NCBI GenBank assembly: GCA_009668945.1
Contig: SBEH01000005.1
Location: forward strand, 1-64,000
Direction: 5' to 3'
DNA: 64,000 nucleotides
Source: Actinomycetota bacterium
GTDB lineage: Bacteria > Actinomycetota > Coriobacteriia > Anaerosomatales > Anaerosomataceae
The notes under the pieces are model-generated. The model was not told the origin of the DNA. It saw only the letters and a program-made list of their open reading frames with translations, and made no database searches. Of the stretch, positions 1 to 9,879 are shown piece after piece (within the stretch, counting starts at the first letter, position 1; each line of letters begins with the position of its first letter). The translations under genes were made by a program, and so were the position numbers.

Positions 1-57
1 CATGCGCTAGGTTGAGACGAGGCCGCTCGTTCGCAGCTGAAGCACTGGACGTTAGCA
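1..57 (+). repeat. Partial attC site (3' half)
   Basis: Only the right part of the site is in the window. It ends in the core GTTAGCA (51-57), preceded by GCTGAAGC (37-44), which resembles the left flank of other attC right arms. The inverse core of the site at 1043 is TGCTAAC, the exact complement of GTTAGCA. That is expected if the cassette between them was inserted as a circle whose own two ends pair. Confidence 0.65.
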
Positions 58-83
58 GGAGCATCCGCACAATCGGAGGCCGC

Positions 84-1037
84 ATGGCGGAGCCAATCAT
101 TCGGCGTCAGATCGATTCGGCACTTTTTCCCCCAGTCGCCCGGGACCTCTCCTTCCTCATGCGACACGCACGTGAGTCTGCCGGCGATTTTGCCGTCGAG
201 CTGCGGGGCGACTACCTCACCGTCTACTACCAGGGAAACATCGCCGCAGCAGTCATCTTCAGAAGACCATCCAGCCGAGCGCGCGTCTTCACAACTCCCT
301 ACGCTGTGGACATCGGTGCCGCGTTTCTTCCGAAGACCCACCTCCTCCGCCATTTCGTCGAGAACGACCTGGGTCATGCACTCGTCGTGCAGGGCTATCA
401 GCGAGTCTACGCGGACGCCGAGCTTGTTCGGGCGATTCTGACACCCGCTCACCTTGAGGAACTGGCGGCTGCGATCCGCGATCGCGCGTACGGCCCTGAA
501 ATCACGGCGGAACAGGGGGTCATGGCCGCCAACCCGCCGCGACCTGAGTTCCTCCTGATTGACAGGCAAGTGTCCGACCGCAAGTGGCGAAGTCGAATGG
601 ATCTGCTCGCCCTCCGGCGTAACGATGAGAACTGCTATAGGTTCGCGGTACTCGAACTCAAAGTGGGCGCGAACTCCGCACTCAGCGGTCCGGTCCTCGC
701 GCAGCTCACCGACTACATGCGGCACATCGAGAAGTGCGGTGCCGTCTACGCGCGCTGCTACGAGACGGTCTACGCGCAGAAGCGCACGCTGGGGCTCCTG
801 CCGGCTGAGATGCCCGAGTCACTCAGTATTGACACCACGCGCGTCGACGGCGCGGTTGTGGTCGTCGGGGACCTGTCAGGGGCAGCAGAGCATCTTGCCG
901 CCCTACGAACGCGAGACCTCGGGGTCCCCGTGCTCTGTCCGGAAGGGCCGCTCGTGGACACAGACGGGGAGTGGTCCGCGGACGCAACCCGAAGGGCGAT
1001 GAACCTCGCAGGTGGGCAACGATCCGACGTTGAGTGA
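84..1037 (+). CDS. Cassette 1: PD-(D/E)XK nuclease-like protein of unknown function
   Basis: This 317-residue soluble protein is the single gene of the first complete cassette. The start is ATG at 84 with CGGAGG at 74-79; an in-frame start at 12 would lie inside the preceding attC site. The central part has R-M-D-L-L-A followed about 14 residues later by L-E-L-K, which fits the D...(D/E)XK core of restriction-endonuclease-like folds, then a conserved-looking Q-L-T-D-Y helix typical of such nucleases. The N-terminal third has no motif I recognise. Possible roles are DNA or RNA cleavage or a defence function, but the fold call rests on the short motif alone. The stop codon is 5 bases before its attC site. 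Confidence 0.7.
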   Translation: MAEPIIRRQIDSALFPPVARDLSFLMRHARESAGDFAVELRGDYLTVYYQGNIAAAVIFRRPSSRARVFTTPYAVDIGAAFLPKTHLLRHFVENDLGHALVVQGYQRVYADAELVRAILTPAHLEELAAAIRDRAYGPEITAEQGVMAANPPRPEFLLIDRQVSDRKWRSRMDLLALRRNDENCYRFAVLELKVGANSALSGPVLAQLTDYMRHIEKCGAVYARCYETVYAQKRTLGLLPAEMPESLSIDTTRVDGAVVVVGDLSGAAEHLAALRTRDLGVPVLCPEGPLVDTDGEWSADATRRAMNLAGGQRSDVE

Positions 1038-1042
1038 TGCCC

Positions 1043-1140
1043 TGCTAACAAGTGTATCCAGTCGGACGGCGCTCCGCATAGCGTAGAGTTGCCGTCAGCG
1101 ACCGCAAGGAGCGCCGCAGCTGATGCGCCCGACGTTGGCC
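1043..1140 (+). repeat. attC site 1
   Basis: Inverse core TGCTAAC (1043-1049), inner left arm CGGCGCTCC (1067-1075), inner right arm GGAGCGCCG (1108-1116) and core GTTGGCC (1134-1140). The inner arms are perfect 9-base complements. The inverse core is the complement of GTTAGCA at 51-57, the 5' end of the same cassette. Confidence 0.85.
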
Positions 1141-1238
1141 GTGGCTGGGAAGCTAGGTGCGTTGAACCACAGTCGCGCCAGCGGGAATATACTCGGGGAC
1201 TCGCGCGACTCCGTTCGAGTGCGAGAGGGGAGATCACC

Positions 1239-1586
1239 GTGCAAGACAAACGGAACGAACCATTCTCCGCAACCGAGCTCATCGATGCGCTGCCCTTCTT
1301 CGTGATGATTCTCGATTCGAATCACCGCATCATCGATGCCAACACGTTCTTCTGCCGGAACGTGGAGTACGACGCGGAGACCTGCCCCATGGAGTGCTAT
1401 GCGGCCGTGCACCATACAGGGAGTCCGCATCCTGACTGCCCCCTGCTCGAGTCGATTAGGACAGGTCTTCCTGCCACGAGGCTGCTCGCGGACGACCTGC
1501 ATCCAGCGCTGCAGGTCACGACCTACCCAATCGGGAGCAAGCCGCCGTTTGGCCAGCTGTACCTTCACTTCGCGCAAGCGGTGTGA
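1239..1586 (+). CDS. Cassette 2: stand-alone PAS-domain protein
   Basis: I place the start at GTG 1239, preceded by GGGGAG at 1227-1232, giving 115 residues; a longer frame begins at 1089 inside the attC site and is less likely. Nearly the whole protein is one PAS-like fold: an L-P-F-F-V-M-I-L-D-S start, then H-R-I-I-D-A-N and a C-P-M-E-C-Y segment with several cysteines and histidines, as seen in the sensory PAS domains of histidine kinases. No kinase, GGDEF or DNA-binding part is attached. It may sense a ligand or redox state and act through a partner, or be a fragment captured as a cassette. The partner is not visible. Confidence 0.7.
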   Translation: MQDKRNEPFSATELIDALPFFVMILDSNHRIIDANTFFCRNVEYDAETCPMECYAAVHHTGSPHPDCPLLESIRTGLPATRLLADDLHPALQVTTYPIGSKPPFGQLYLHFAQAV

Positions 1587-1615
1587 AGCTGCCGGTCATA
1601 GGCAACGCGCCGCAC

Positions 1616-1715
1616 GGCTAACCAGCGCGTCGAGGCGGACGGCGCGCCGTGGAGGTCTAGAATCAAGAGCAGGCGGCGCTTGGCGCGCCGCCGCTCACGC
1701 GCCACATCGTTCGAT
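1616..1715 (+). repeat. attC site 2
   Basis: Inverse core GGCTAAC (1616-1622), inner arms CGGCGCGCC (1640-1648) and GGCGCGCCG (1682-1690), perfectly complementary, and core GTTCGAT (1709-1715). The inverse core pairs with GTTGGCC at 1134-1140, the 5' end of the same cassette, with one mismatch. The core has C instead of a purine at position 4. Confidence 0.8.
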
Positions 1716-1740
1716 CAGACAACGGGGCTCTGGGAGTGCG

Positions 1741-2574
1741 GTGGCGAGGATGGACAGACAGTGGCTGTGGCTGATTGCCGTCGTCGTCCTCTGCTACGCG
1801 GGAATCGTCCTGTTCATGTTCCTCTCTCAGGACCAGACCGTGTATCCGGCCACCACCCTCACACCCGAGGACGCAGACGCTCTTGCGAAGCTCCAGGGTC
1901 TGGCGCCGTGGCCGCGGGGCGCGGTCATTCCCACGGCCTATCTGGCCGAGCCAACTACGGGTGCAGTGGGGACCGTGATCGTGTTCCACGGCAACGGCGG
2001 TCATGCCCTTGATCGCGGTTACTACGCCGCTGCCCTCAACCGCCGTGGATACCGCGTGCTCCTGGCGGAGTATCCGGGCTACGGCGCTCGACCCGGACCG
2101 TTCGGCGAGCATTCCTTCGTCTCAGACGCGCTGTCGACACTAGACGCGGCCTATGCGGAGTTCGGGCCGCCGATCTACGTGCTGGGCGAGTCTCTGGGCG
2201 CGGCCATCGCCTCCGCGATGGCTCGCGATCGGCCACAGCAGGTCGCCGGTGTCGCCCTGATCACCCCGTGGGACTCGCTTCCGGACCTCGCTCAGGCGAA
2301 GTACCCGCTGCTGCCCGCGCGGTACATCATGAAGTCGAGGTTCGACAACGTGGCGAATCTGGCCTCGTACGAGGGCCCAAAGGCTGTGGTCATGGCGAGC
2401 GAGGACGAGATCGTCCCCAACGTGCACACCCGTCGGCTGTACGACTCGCTCGGGCAGCCGAAGCGGCTCTGGACATTCGAGGGCGTCGGGCACAACGACT
2501 GGCCGGCGGGGCCCGAAGAAGCGTGGTGGTCCGAGCTCGTCGACTTCTGGGCGTCGACCGCCGACGAGAACTGA
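1741..2574 (+). CDS. Cassette 3: membrane-anchored alpha/beta hydrolase
   Basis: The protein is 277 residues from GTG 1741 (GGGAG at 1731-1735); an in-frame ATG at 1750 is an alternative. Residues about 8-26 form one hydrophobic segment, so the enzyme is probably anchored with its catalytic domain outside. The fold signature is complete: H-G-N-G-G oxyanion-hole loop, G-E-S-L-G nucleophile elbow, an acidic residue in A-S-E-D-E-I-V-P and a catalytic histidine in G-V-G-H-N-D. This resembles the BEM46/ABHD13-type serine hydrolases. The natural substrate (ester, lipid or peptide) cannot be told. It is the largest and best recognised product of the array. Confidence 0.85.
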   Translation: MARMDRQWLWLIAVVVLCYAGIVLFMFLSQDQTVYPATTLTPEDADALAKLQGLAPWPRGAVIPTAYLAEPTTGAVGTVIVFHGNGGHALDRGYYAAALNRRGYRVLLAEYPGYGARPGPFGEHSFVSDALSTLDAAYAEFGPPIYVLGESLGAAIASAMARDRPQQVAGVALITPWDSLPDLAQAKYPLLPARYIMKSRFDNVANLASYEGPKAVVMASEDEIVPNVHTRRLYDSLGQPKRLWTFEGVGHNDWPAGPEEAWWSELVDFWASTADEN

Positions 2575-2610
2575 ACGGCTCCACGCCTCGAGGACTCGAT
2601 GCCCCTGCCG

Positions 2611-2697
2611 ACCGAACCAGCGCCTGAACCTGACGCGCCGCAGCGCGCGCTACACTTGGCGGTGAAAGGCGCGCGGGTTACGCGCAACACGTTAGGC
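2611..2697 (+). repeat. attC site 3
   Basis: Inverse core ACCGAAC (2611-2617), inner arms CGCGCC (2634-2639) and GGCGCG (2668-2673), core GTTAGGC (2691-2697). The inverse core pairs with the 5' end of its own cassette, GTTCGAT at 1709-1715, with one mismatch, including the unusual fourth base. Length is 87 bases. Confidence 0.8.
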
Positions 2698-2713
2698 AGA
2701 TGCGGGGAGGGTT

Positions 2714-2761
2714 GAGAGACACGGACTTGGCCACCCCTGTGGCCCAACCGTTGTGTCTCTC
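2714..2761 (+). promoter_or_regulatory. Nested hairpin in the leader of cassette 4
   Basis: An outer perfect 9-bp stem (GAGAGACAC at 2714-2722 with GTGTCTCTC at 2753-2761) encloses an inner 6-bp stem (GGCCAC 2729-2734 with GTGGCC 2739-2744, loop CCCT). It lies between the attC core and the ribosome binding site (GGGGAG 2771-2776) of the membrane-protein gene. There is no T-run, so it is not a typical terminator; it may affect translation or be a protein-binding site. Confidence 0.55.
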
Positions 2762-2782
2762 GCGCAAATCGGGGAGCTGCCC

Positions 2783-3196
2783 ATGTTCGAGTCGTTTGAG
2801 GCCCCGTATCGGCGGGTCACTGTGATTCTCCTGGTACTCGCGGCGGTGGCAAAAGCTGGGGCGTTCCTGGTCGGTATCGACGACAATCCCCTCGGCACCG
2901 CCCTCGCGGCAATCGCGGGGACCGTCCTCGTGACGGCCTTTCTTCACCATTGGCGCTCACCCAAGCGCTTCCTCGCGCTTTCTGCCATCTCATTCGGCCT
3001 CGTCGTGATCTTGGTTGGGATCCTCATCGCGATCGACATCTCGGTCACGGGAGGTCGCCTTCCCGAACCGGTTGCTCCGTCGGTCGAGTCCGCGGGCAAT
3101 GCCCTCGCCCTGATGGTTGCGTTCGTCGCCGTACCATCCGTCTTCGTGGGGCTCGTGGGAGCCATCGTTGTATGGTTGGCTGGTCGACGGAAGTAG
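2783..3196 (+). CDS. Cassette 4: small integral membrane protein
   Basis: The 137-residue product starts at ATG 2783 after GGGGAG at 2771-2776; an upstream in-frame start at 2753 lies inside the hairpin and is less likely. Four hydrophobic segments are visible (about residues 13-32, 36-53, 63-83 and 106-129) with short charged loops, so it is a polytopic inner-membrane protein. I see no catalytic motif and do not recognise the family. The stop is 4 bases before the next attC site, which fits a one-gene cassette. Confidence 0.7.
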   Translation: MFESFEAPYRRVTVILLVLAAVAKAGAFLVGIDDNPLGTALAAIAGTVLVTAFLHHWRSPKRFLALSAISFGLVVILVGILIAIDISVTGGRLPEPVAPSVESAGNALALMVAFVAVPSVFVGLVGAIVVWLAGRRK

Positions 3197-3200
3197 CACT

Positions 3201-3295
3201 GCCCAACAAGCGCTTCGAGCGATCGGCGCAAGCAGGCGAGAATGGAGATGCGACGGCGGCAGGCGCGCCGCCGCTCAAGTGCAACCACGTTCGGC
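3201..3295 (+). repeat. attC site 4
   Basis: Inverse core GCCCAAC (3201-3207), then AAGCGCTTC shared with site 5, inner arms CGGCGC (3224-3229) and GCGCCG (3265-3270), core GTTCGGC (3289-3295). The inverse core pairs with the cassette's own 5' core GTTAGGC except at the central base. Confidence 0.8.
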
Positions 3296-3354
3296 AGAGA
3301 TGCGCATGGGGAACGATTCCTAGAAAGAGGCCGCTCGGATAGGGGGTGTTCGAG

Positions 3355-3711
3355 ATGTCGACTCCAACCGCGGTACCCGGAGCTCCAGGCTCCACGTCGA
3401 GGGCCACCCGCGTGGTCCCAAAGCGCGCTGTCGGCTGGTGGGCGTTCGGACTCAGCGTCGCGGGCATCGCGGCTTGGGTCATCCTGCCGGTGATCACGAC
3501 GGTCTTCCGTGAGTCCTACCCGATCACCGACACCGCCTTCATGCCAATCATCGGCGTGGCTCTCGTCGATGCCGCCGCGATCTTCAATGCGCTCGACCTG
3601 TTCCTGTGGAAAGAGCGCTCGGTCCTCAACATCGTGGCTGCAGCCATCACGATTCCGGCGGCGCTATTCCTCACTCTGACGTTCGTCGGGGAGGGTATCG
3701 GGGGAGTCTAG
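3355..3711 (+). CDS. Cassette 5: small integral membrane protein
   Basis: The 118-residue protein starts at ATG 3355 with AGGGGG at 3341-3346. A proline/threonine-rich N-terminal tail of about 25 residues leads into three hydrophobic segments (about 28-50, 62-82 and 92-110). The layout resembles small DUF-type membrane proteins that follow a proline-rich cytoplasmic tail, but I do not recognise the family and assign no function. The start is 60 bases after the attC core and the stop 17 bases before the next inverse core. Confidence 0.7.
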   Translation: MSTPTAVPGAPGSTSRATRVVPKRAVGWWAFGLSVAGIAAWVILPVITTVFRESYPITDTAFMPIIGVALVDAAAIFNALDLFLWKERSVLNIVAAAITIPAALFLTLTFVGEGIGGV

Positions 3712-3727
3712 GTGCGGATGACCTCCC

Positions 3728-3814
3728 GCCCAACAAGCGCTTCCAGCGGACGGCGGAGATGCGGTTGAGTGACGTGAGCGGCGTGCCCGCCGCCGAAGTG
3801 CAACGCCGTTAGGC
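3728..3814 (+). repeat. attC site 5 (last in array)
   Basis: Inverse core GCCCAAC (3728-3734), AAGCGCTTC (3736-3744) as in site 4, an imperfect inner arm pair (GGACGGCGG against CCGCCGCC) and core GTTAGGC (3808-3814). The array ends here; no further inverse core is found before dapA. Confidence 0.8.
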
Positions 3815-3832
3815 ACAGTGCTGGGGGTGCTC

Positions 3833-4016
3833 ATGACCGAGGGCGATTCTCCACAGCGTTGGTGGGTGAGAAGGCTGCCTCCTGCGGACTGCCCTGCGTG
3901 TCCTCCTTGGCGTCTTCCTCGTGCTCGTTGTCCAGTGGGGAGCGCGGTACGTGCGGACGAGTGTCCGACTGCGCCGCCTCAGGATGGCGGCGCCGATTTG
4001 GGTACGGCGAAGGTAA
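3833..4016 (+). pseudogene. Frameshifted small membrane protein after the last attC
   Basis: From ATG 3833 the frame reads about 15 plausible residues (rich in R and W) and then turns into an unnatural proline/cysteine-rich stretch. One base removed near 3875-3882 puts translation into a frame that gives a clear transmembrane helix (L-R-V-L-L-G-V-F-L-V-L-V-V) and an arginine-rich tail ending at TAA 4014-4016, about 60 residues in total. This looks like the gene of a terminal cassette broken by a single-base insertion, or a sequencing error. From 4017 to dapA I see no gene; CACAAT at 4068-4073 could be a -10 element but has no convincing -35. Confidence 0.45.
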
Positions 4017-4136
4017 CCCTCCAGTGCCAGACACGCGAGACACTCGGCGGTCAGGTGCGCCGTGTGGCACAATACACGCGTAGATTCACACGCTCGGGCG
4101 TCCTCTCGTACGCCTTGACCCAAGGGGCGATCCACC

Positions 4137-5030
4137 ATGGCAGAACCCAGATTCGGCCGTCTGCTCACAGCGATGGTCACTCCCTTCACGCCCGAAGGCG
4201 AACTCGACCTGCCGCGCGCTCAGGAGCTTGCTTTGCGCCTGCTGGACCAGGGAACGGAGGCGCTCGTGGTGTGTGGCACCACCGGCGAGTCGCCTACCGT
4301 CTTCTATGACGACAAGCTCCGGCTCTTCGAGGCCGTCCTCGAGGCCGTGAACGGCGCAGCGCCGGTCATCGCCAATGCCGGCGACAACTGCACCGACGAC
4401 TCGGTCGAGTTCGCGCAGCAGGTCGTGAAGCTCGGCGTGGACGCGGTCATGGCAGTCGTGCCGTACTACAACAAGCCGCCGCAGGAAGGCCTGTACCGGC
4501 ACTTCGGGGCCATCGCAAACGCGGTGGACGTACCGGTGATCATGTACAACATCCCGGGTCGCAGCGTCATCAATCTGGAGGCCGCCACCGCGCTTCGCCT
4601 GGCCGCCGACTTCGAGAACATCGTCGCCGTGAAGGAGGCGTCCTCCAACCTCACGCAGATCGCCTCGATCATCGACGGCTCACCGGTGGGCTTCGAGGTG
4701 CTCTCCGGCAATGACGAAGACACTCTGCCGATGATGGGCCTCGGCGCCACCGGCGTGATCTCGGTGGCCTCGCACGTAGCGGGCCCGCAGCTTTCAGAGA
4801 TGCTCACCGCGCAGGCACTCGGGGACCACACGCGGGCGCTCAAGATCCACCTGGAGCTGATGCCTCTGTTCAAGGCGCTGTTCATGACCGCAAACCCCAT
4901 CATGGTGAAGAAGGCGCTCGAACTCGTGGGCTTCGCGGTGGGGGACTGCCGCCTGCCACTCATTCCCGCCACCGACGCCCAGACCGCCGAGCTGTCGCGC
5001 ATCATGCAGCACTCAGGACTCCTCGCCTGA
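4137..5030 (+). CDS. dapA: 4-hydroxy-tetrahydrodipicolinate synthase
   Basis: DapA condenses pyruvate with aspartate semialdehyde, the first committed step towards diaminopimelate and lysine, in the cytoplasm. The 297-residue length is typical. Visible family landmarks are G47-T-T-G-E-S, the P-Y-Y-N-K-P loop (109-114), the catalytic tyrosine Y137 in M-Y-N-I-P and the Schiff-base lysine K166 in A-V-K-E-A-S. The start ATG 4137 follows AAGGGG at 4122-4127. It opens the conserved housekeeping block and is followed 69 bases later by rnj, the order seen in Mycobacterium and, with rnjB, in Bacillus. The cassette array lies immediately upstream. Confidence 0.97.
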   Translation: MAEPRFGRLLTAMVTPFTPEGELDLPRAQELALRLLDQGTEALVVCGTTGESPTVFYDDKLRLFEAVLEAVNGAAPVIANAGDNCTDDSVEFAQQVVKLGVDAVMAVVPYYNKPPQEGLYRHFGAIANAVDVPVIMYNIPGRSVINLEAATALRLAADFENIVAVKEASSNLTQIASIIDGSPVGFEVLSGNDEDTLPMMGLGATGVISVASHVAGPQLSEMLTAQALGDHTRALKIHLELMPLFKALFMTANPIMVKKALELVGFAVGDCRLPLIPATDAQTAELSRIMQHSGLLA

Positions 5031-7620: not shown

Positions 7621-9879
7621 ATGGCCGCCGGCCGCTCGCAGAAGAAGACCACAGCCACCGGGCGCGGATCGCGCGGCCCTCAGACTACCCGACGCACACC
7701 GGCTCCGCCCGCGCCGCAGCGAGTGCTCGACGACGACAGCCGCCACGAGATCGTCGGGATCGTGCTGGGCGCGCTGTCCATCGCGCTCGGCATCAGCGTG
7801 CTCACGGAAGCCGCAGGTGTGGTGCCCAAGGCGGTCGCGACGATCCTGCGTCTCGGATTCGGCCTCGGCGCGTATGCGATACCGCTCATCGTGCTCGTCT
7901 GGGCGATCACGTTCTTCCTCACCTTCGTCAGGGTCGACGAGGTCAGAGTGGGGGCTGGCCTCGGCCTCGTGCTCGTGGCTGTACTCGCCACACTCTCTAT
8001 CGGCAATGACGTAGCGACTCAATGGGACCAGTCGGTCATCACAGGCACAGGCGGCTACGTCGGCGGTGCGCTGGCGTGGCTGTTGCGCACCCTGCTCGGC
8101 CATCCAATTGCGTATGTCGTGGCGATCGCGCTCGTGCTCGTCGGCCTGGTCATCGCCGGGCTCTCCATCACGAGCGTGGTCGACAGCGCCCGCGGCGCGC
8201 TCGCGCGGCCCCGCGCCGAGGACGGGGACCTGGCCGCGGATGTCCCGCGCCGGAGAGCGGCCAGGACGGTTCCCCTGCAGGAGTTCGAGCAGCCGGCGGG
8301 ATTCGAAGGAGAGTCCGAAACGCCCGGCGCCGGCAAGAAGCCGCGCGCTGTCGATCCCGAGCACGCCAAACCGACGCTGCCCATTCAGACGTCCGTCGCC
8401 CCACGCGCGCTCGAGGGATTCGAACTCCCGCCGCTGTCGATGCTCTCGCGCACCCCTGAGACCGCGGCCGCGCACAAGGCCTCGGAGAAGGAGCTGCGGC
8501 ACACTGCAGGGCTGATCGAGCAGACCTTCGCGACGTTCGACATCATGGCGCGCGTTGTGAACTGGATCCCGGGTCCAACCGTGACGATGTTCGAGGTGGA
8601 GATCGCCAAGGGCGTCAAGGTCAGCCGCGTCACCGCCCTCTCGGACGACCTCGCGCTCGCGCTTTCGGCGCCCACCATCCGCATCCTCGCGCCGATTCCC
8701 GGGAAGGCATACGTGGGCGTGGAAGTGCCCAACGCGGGTCGCACCACCGTGACGCTGGGCGACGTGCTGCATAGCGGTCTCGTGGCCGATCCGCGAGCGC
8801 TCATGCTGGCGATCGGCAAGGACGTCGCCGGTGAGAACATCGCCGCCGACCTCGCCTCTATGCCGCACCTGCTCATTGCGGGCTCCACCGGCACCGGCAA
8901 GAGCGTATGTATCAACGCGCTCATCGTGTCGATCATGATGCGTTCCACGCCCGCCGAGGTCCGGCTCATCCTGATCGACCCCAAGCGGATCGAGCTCAAT
9001 CTGTACAACGGCGTGCCGCACCTCTACGTGCCGGTCGTGACCGAAGCGAAGGAAGCCGCCTCGGCACTGCACTGGGCGGTGGGGGAGATGGAAGCGCGGC
9101 TGAAGCGCCTCCAGAAGGCTGGCGCCCGCAACATCTCGCAGTACAACACGTCCGTGCGCAGCGGCGATCTCGCCGACGGCGAGGAGATGCCGTACCTCGT
9201 CATCATCATCGACGAGCTCGCGGACCTCATGATGGTCGCCGCAAAGGAGGTCGAGGACTCCATCTGCCGCATCGCGCAGCTGGCGCGGGCGGCGGGCATT
9301 CACCTGATCGTCGCCACGCAGCGGCCGTCCACCGACATCATCACGGGTCTCATCAAGACCAACATCACGAACCGCATCGCGTTCGCGGTGTCCTCAGGCA
9401 TCGACAGCCGTGTCATCCTCGACCAGCCCGGCGCCGAGAAGCTCGTCGGCCTCGGCGACATGCTGTTCTCCACTCCAGCGTGGCCCAAGCCCAAGCGGAT
9501 CCAGGGTGCCTACGTCTCCGAAGACGAGATCAATCGCGTCGTGCAGCACGTCCGAGAGCAGGCCGAGCCGGACTATCACGAGGAGATTCTGCACCTCAAG
9601 GTGACCGGCCCCACCGGTACCCTCGAGAGCTCCGACGATGACGACCCGCTGCTGTGGGAGGCTGCGGACATCGTGGTCACGAGCGGAATGGGCTCCACAT
9701 CGCTGCTGCAGCGCCGTCTCAAGGTGGGCTACGCGCGCGCCGGACGGATCATGGACATGCTGGAGATGAAGGGTATCGTCGGCCAGCCCGACGGGAGCCG
9801 TCCTCGGGAGGTGCTCGTCGACATAGAGGAGCTCGAGTCGCTGAAGATCTTCGAGCGCGAGGAGCGCGACGATGCATAG
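7621..9879 (+). CDS. ftsK: DNA translocase FtsK/SpoIIIE
   Basis: FtsK pumps DNA through the closing septum and aids chromosome dimer resolution. The 752-residue protein has four N-terminal membrane segments (about 40-185), a short linker, then the alpha/beta RecA-like motor with Walker A G-S-T-G-T-G-K-S (421-428) and Walker B with D-E-L-A-D, and a C-terminal winged-helix gamma domain (R-L-K-V-G-Y-A-R-A) that reads KOPS-type DNA. The linker is short, as in SpoIIIE. ATG 7621 follows AAGGAG at 7610-7615. It keeps the expected position downstream of dapA-rnj and upstream of rodZ and pgsA. Confidence 0.96.
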   Translation: MAAGRSQKKTTATGRGSRGPQTTRRTPAPPAPQRVLDDDSRHEIVGIVLGALSIALGISVLTEAAGVVPKAVATILRLGFGLGAYAIPLIVLVWAITFFLTFVRVDEVRVGAGLGLVLVAVLATLSIGNDVATQWDQSVITGTGGYVGGALAWLLRTLLGHPIAYVVAIALVLVGLVIAGLSITSVVDSARGALARPRAEDGDLAADVPRRRAARTVPLQEFEQPAGFEGESETPGAGKKPRAVDPEHAKPTLPIQTSVAPRALEGFELPPLSMLSRTPETAAAHKASEKELRHTAGLIEQTFATFDIMARVVNWIPGPTVTMFEVEIAKGVKVSRVTALSDDLALALSAPTIRILAPIPGKAYVGVEVPNAGRTTVTLGDVLHSGLVADPRALMLAIGKDVAGENIAADLASMPHLLIAGSTGTGKSVCINALIVSIMMRSTPAEVRLILIDPKRIELNLYNGVPHLYVPVVTEAKEAASALHWAVGEMEARLKRLQKAGARNISQYNTSVRSGDLADGEEMPYLVIIIDELADLMMVAAKEVEDSICRIAQLARAAGIHLIVATQRPSTDIITGLIKTNITNRIAFAVSSGIDSRVILDQPGAEKLVGLGDMLFSTPAWPKPKRIQGAYVSEDEINRVVQHVREQAEPDYHEEILHLKVTGPTGTLESSDDDDPLLWEAADIVVTSGMGSTSLLQRRLKVGYARAGRIMDMLEMKGIVGQPDGSRPREVLVDIEELESLKIFEREERDDA

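Follow-up and report, generated by a model that had tools for sequence, protein, structure and literature searches.

The first 64,000 nucleotides of contig SBEH01000005.1 (C7 of assembly GCA_009668945.1, an Actinomycetota bacterium of the family Anaerosomataceae, class Coriobacteriia) were analysed and are referred to here as the window. The window starts at base 1 of C7, which is a contig edge, and opens with an integron-type array: five complete attC recombination sites and one partial site in positions 1-3815 delimit five one-gene cassettes on a single strand, and the chromosomal gene dapA follows. The sites and cassettes were as the initial annotation had described them, at the same coordinates, and the sites were likewise seen to differ in length and loop and not to form one simple repeat. 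The features are listed below, with bit scores and E values from the attC covariance model R2 and with ORF for open reading frame.

1-58, + strand: truncated attC, L' and R' halves, 5' part cut by the contig start; GTTAGCA from 51; 21 bits, E 6e-4, model positions 37-102
52-1134, + strand: cassette 1, ORF 84-1037 (317 aa, no family) and its attC
1041-1141, + strand: attC site 1, R'' TGCTAAC, R' GTTGGCC at 1134; loop TAGCGT and TAGAGT; 50.1 bits, E 3e-13
1135-1709, + strand: cassette 2, ORF 1239-1586 (GTG start, about 115 aa) and its attC
1614-1716, + strand: attC site 2, R' GTTCGATC at 1709; loop TAGAAT at 1658-1663; 67.1 bits, E 1e-18
1710-2691, + strand: cassette 3, ORF 1750-2574 and its attC; alpha/beta hydrolase (PF12146, E 3e-19) with an N-terminal hydrophobic segment
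2609-2698, + strand: attC site 3, R'' GACCGAAC, R' GTTAGGC at 2691; loop TACACT at 2651-2656; 56.0 bits, E 4e-15
2692-3289, + strand: cassette 4, ORF 2783-3196 and its attC; small membrane protein by sequence, no family
3199-3296, + strand: attC site 4, R'' GCCCAAC, R' GTTCGGC at 3289; 62.1 bits, E 5e-17
3290-3808, + strand: cassette 5, ORF 3355-3711 and its attC; small membrane protein by sequence, no family
3726-3815, + strand: attC site 5, the last of the array, R'' GCCCAAC, R' GTTAGGC at 3808; 52.9 bits, E 4e-14
3816-4060, + strand: tail separating attC site 5 from the dapA promoter; without R2 match or recognisable attC, possibly a decayed cassette
4137-5030, + strand: dapA, right chromosomal border of the array (PF00701, E 3e-86)

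Two covariance models of attC were built. The first, R1, was made from the five window sites and six sites of one relative and matched sites in many genomes, and the second, R2, was made from 72 attC sites, all from other genomes to avoid circularity. Applied to the 64-kb window, R2 recovered the five complete sites at 50.1 to 67.1 bits (E 3e-13 to 1e-18), far above background, the best other match being at chance level (E 0.5). Among 42 attC matches on the contigs of the source genome, 88.9 % of the stem pairs were standard, and the covariation score reached 0.336, whereas shuffles gave 0.102 ± 0.010 and slid structures no more than 0.074. A folding check, which the initial annotation had proposed together with the covariance search, did not work out: a generic single-strand DNA fold did not separate the window sites from shuffles (z -1.9 to +0.2), so fold energy alone was not taken as evidence and weight was placed on the model and the covariation. 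No Rfam family matched the attC sites at the gathering threshold, and a hand-written attC scanner was dropped, as it did not separate true sites from background. The source genome holds about 35-40 attC sites clustered on seven contigs, which besides C7 are C2, C4, C8, C9, the start of C20 and the end of C24.

An integron cassette is a circle of one gene and one attC, and the integron integrase (IntI) joins attC to a double-stranded attI at G|TT. In 90 cassettes, R'' was compared over the seven bases after GTT with the cassette's own 5' end, which agreed at 5.78 positions, and with the flanking R' belonging to the next cassette, which agreed at 3.33; permuted ends gave 3.24 ± 0.11, with a maximum of 3.64 in 2000 permutations. 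Because R'' matches the 5' end of its own cassette and not that of its neighbour, the units of the array are read from their sequence as former circles cut at G|TT, which moved in that form. The own 5' end of cassette 1, GTTAGCAGGA, agrees at nine of ten bases with the reverse complement of its R'', GTTAGCAGGG, and that of cassette 2 agrees at six of the seven bases after GTT. The cassette 1 protein, which is present in 2 of the 69 genomes of the order, had no match in Pfam, PADLOC or NCBIfam; its stretch RMDLLAL...AVLELKVG may be PD-(D/E)XK-like, and its AlphaFold model (predicted local distance difference test score 37) was useless. The ORF of cassette 2 has a weak PAS match (PF00989, E 0.009) below the cut-off, and PADLOC identified no defence family among the cassettes.

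Similar imperfect palindromes between short same-strand genes would also be produced by ordinary intergenic repeats of the repetitive extragenic palindrome or bacterial interspersed mosaic element type, lying between unrelated genes. This explanation is refuted by the response to an attC-specific model and the covariation of the stems, by the match of R'' boxes to the 5' end of their own cassette, and by the IntI, the attI and the empty sites in relatives that are described below. The region 1-3815 is thus confirmed by sequence analysis as a genuine integron-type cassette array in a Coriobacteriia genome: single-gene cassettes in one orientation, with attC sites between them that pair as R''/L''-L'/R'.

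The position of the array in the chromosome was established from relatives, since the window starts at a contig edge and the sequence upstream of it cannot be read. In about 15 relatives of the family dapA directly follows lysC, which encodes amino acid kinase and ACT domains, and the junction is empty, with a gap of 99-196 bases in every such relative read except G014. In the source genome (G000) the gene lysC is on C24, with attC sites from there to the end of that contig; C7 opens with further attC sites, after which comes dapA. G022 and G025, two congeners, each have lysC, array and dapA in this order on a single contig. No protein of the lysC-dapA arrays of G022 and G025 has more than 50 % identity to those of the array pieces of the source genome; together with the rarity of the cassette 1 protein, this indicates that contents turn over between constant borders. 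The comparison of the dapA upstream region across relatives, which the initial annotation had called for, therefore gave no fixed repeat, and its placing of an integron-type array beside dapA in a Coriobacteriia-like genome was borne out. As a separate observation, the lysC-dapA junction of G014 (C14, L100) holds an attI, one cassette and a gene reading as a PASTA-type serine/threonine kinase, and that of its congener G013 is empty.

Of the intI and attI for which the initial annotation had proposed to read the upstream contig, the intI was found elsewhere: the left border of the lysC-dapA array in G000, G022 and G025 is lysC with an attI-like site, no intI occurs at this locus in the congeners, and the source genome carries a single true IntI on C21 (252099-253040; TIGR02249, 472 bits against a cut-off of 265) and an attI-like site after lysC on C24. 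The IntI matches V. cholerae IntI4 (2a3v, E 2.5e-84) over its full length, including the integron-specific insert, or additional domain, through KYPSAAGEWKWQWVFPQ, and the R, H, R, H, Y positions of tyrosine recombinases are invariant in 22 IntI sequences of the order. The locus reads polyprenyl synthase, fprA, intI, attI, array, and about ten genomes of the family have fprA ahead of intI. On C21 an attI-like site follows intI, and the contig ends within the first cassette; C21 and C20 match opposite flanks of the intI array of G022, so this array is a separate locus. A direct run of C21 into C7 was rejected, because synteny pairs C21 with C20 and C24 with C7. A two-block attI downstream of intI is kept in many genomes of the order, and the first cassette begins at its GTT. 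In many relatives (L012, L018, L019, L013, L009, L014) toxin-antitoxin-like genes (BrnT-like, YefM-like) lie right after intI, before a clear attI core.

Downstream of the lysC stop and ahead of the first cassette, C24 carries both conserved attI blocks, TTATGCAGACTGC and, about 110 bp on, GCGGTCTGGATACTAGGTGTTAG; the corresponding blocks of the intI-linked attI on C21 are TTACACAGACTGC and GCGGTCTGGATACTAGTTGTTAG. Global alignment of the two sites scored 103, compared with 58.7 ± 5.4 for shuffles (maximum 78.5), a difference of about 8 standard deviations. The genome has three occurrences of the exact first-block pattern, and the third, on C12, was discounted because it lies inside a coding gene reading as threonine synthase. 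In the genomes read the motif starts about 20 bases past the lysC stop and no remnant of intI intervenes; an attI-like site after lysC is also present in G022, G025 and G014. In these three genomes and in G000 the first cassette starts exactly at the lysC-side site and matches its own R'' at nine of ten bases, which indicates that these sites have been used for insertion. Further attC clusters, two or three per genome (G022:C14; G025:C9 and C2; G013:C1 and C2; G014:C7 and C11), had no exact upstream attI motif at the ends read.

The array in the window is therefore interpreted as the dapA-proximal end of a sedentary chromosomal array, the second in its genome, which lies between two lysine-pathway genes, lysC and dapA, and would be served in trans by the IntI encoded on C21; a probability of about 0.78 is given to this explanation as a whole. 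The IntI would join attC to attI at G|TT, with attC folded from the bottom strand by analogy with known integrons. The C21-C20 locus has the intI with its own attI and array, and the C24-C7 array, with an attI-like site and no integrase of its own, would most likely be filled and shuffled in trans. As the simplest reading, one IntI probably serves both platforms. Contamination of the metagenome-assembled genome was rejected as an explanation, since both arrays and intI adjoin host genes in the same order as in congeners, and a six-contig assembly also has intI and array. Several points weigh against service in trans of a second, active platform. The ends of C24 and C7 are not joined in the source genome, no end overlap of at least 12 bases being found, so the link between them there is taken from synteny with G022 and G025. 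In G025 the attI and the arrays are kept, intI was not found and the attI core is weaker (GTTATG), and the platform in that genome may be inactive.

G025 shows that an attI platform can outlive its integrase, and on this basis the lysC-dapA array could be the relic of a once-complete integron that lost its intI and is no longer served. The attI-like site that remains would fit such a history, and loss of intI does occur in the family, as G008 has an intI fragment, interrupted by a TAG stop, close to a cassette cluster (G008:C1:446352-446474, also L260). This is judged a possible but rather unlikely account, because the genomes read hold no remnant of intI in front of the attI-like motif, an intact IntI is encoded at another place in both the source genome and G022, and turnover has changed the contents of the array from congener to congener. 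A different origin, considered improbable, is off-target insertion of cassettes at an attG-type secondary site without a real attI, giving an ordinary cluster of attC sites lacking integrases (CALIN). The array does have five attC sites within 2.8 kb and, judged from the congeners, no neighbouring intI, and so falls within the CALIN definition of at least two attC sites within 4 kb of each other; off-target insertion has been put forward as a way in which CALINs arise (PMC8618304), and PMC12444791 cites experimental descriptions of attG sites. An attG-type border would be without attI features, whereas the left border here has both attI blocks, about 100-120 bp apart as is usual, aligns with the intI-linked attI well beyond shuffles, and recurs in G022, G025 and G014. 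Service of the lysC locus in trans by the C21 IntI is accordingly preferred to both.

The attC loops of the order contain a recurrent motif, TANNNT, in 92 of 108 long attC sites, against 15 expected from base composition and 16.6 ± 3.7 in dinucleotide shuffles. TA...T ranks first of 192 spaced triplets, with 23 versions of the three variable bases in the middle; in its reverse-strand form the motif is present in only 31 of these sites. Long attC sites from other phyla have no excess (12 of 29, 13.4 expected); in the window, three of the five sites have the motif in the loop. TA...T corresponds to the invariant positions of the sigma-70 -10 box, and the motif is oriented towards the next cassette. 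It is perhaps a candidate promoter that lies in the attC loop and would transcribe the cassette that follows, and as such could express cassettes distant from the integron promoter Pc. No conserved -35 pattern was found at the long attC sites of the order, and these sites, being related, do not count as independent; the promoter is therefore treated as a lead only. The combination of two distant attI platforms, one without intI, with an attC-loop promoter that would serve whatever inserts next, and its own cassette while circular, is a tentative reading, at somewhat less than even odds.

IntI was detected in 47 of the 69 genomes of the order (E below 1e-60), which is probably Anaerosomatales/OPB41. 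When 298 Coriobacteriia were sampled evenly, the 47 positives all fell within the order, and none was among about 229 others. A quick IntI tree required four label changes for the order's sequences, compared with 26.4 when labels were shuffled; spirochaete IntIs lie nearby, and one branch is common to the order and Planctomycetota, Chlorobiota and Omnitrophota. The low number of changes and the shared branch point to long residence with some transfer, and integrons are a stable feature of the whole order and not an isolated import. Some IntIs annotated as Planctomycetota, Omnitrophota, Chlorobiota and Desulfuromonas (L148-L153) nest within those of the order, through transfer out or mis-binned contigs. 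The array of G009 is broken by a gene reading as an IS110-type transposase (L037, about 8000-9110); the IS110 family targets attC-like sites.

A survey of complete genomes with IntegronFinder 2.0 reported no complete integron in Actinobacteria, where integrons were extremely rare (PMC9024848), and a review names Actinobacteriota among the integron-bearing phyla (PMC8618304). A literature search found no paper on integrons of OPB41 or Anaerosomatales, an absence that is not proof of novelty. As the order keeps IntI, attI and long arrays, the question of why some clades lack integrons can be tested within one class. Expression of cassettes independently of Pc is known from cassette-borne promoters (cmlA, qnrVC, toxin-antitoxin and ORF-less cassettes; PMC8876359), and the candidate described here would have the same effect. 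Promoters of resistance cassettes lie in the 5' untranslated region of their own gene (PMC8876359), whereas the candidate -10 box lies in the attC loop and would fire into the next cassette. No promoter inside attC was found described with the search phrases tried, which is likewise not proof of novelty; such a promoter, if true, would answer how cassettes distant from Pc are expressed.

The lysC-dapA array resembles a CALIN in having several attC sites spaced by less than 4 kb and no intI beside them, and CALINs at conserved chromosomal positions are known, for example in Xanthomonas (PMC12444791). It differs in that an attI-like site is kept at the proximal end; such a site is outside the CALIN definition and was not found described in the CALIN literature searched. 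A stand-alone attI, if true, would mean that an integron is not limited to a single platform. Integrons of the Treponema denticola type are sedentary and chromosomal, with intI in the cassette orientation. In archaeal integrons attI is also immediately downstream of intI (PMC9668308). With both of these the integrons described here share an IntI with the insert, an attI 3' of intI and tandem attC cassettes in one orientation, and the spirochaete IntIs are close in the tree; they differ in having an Actinomycetota order as host, a second attI-bearing array without intI, and -10-like boxes in the attC loops.

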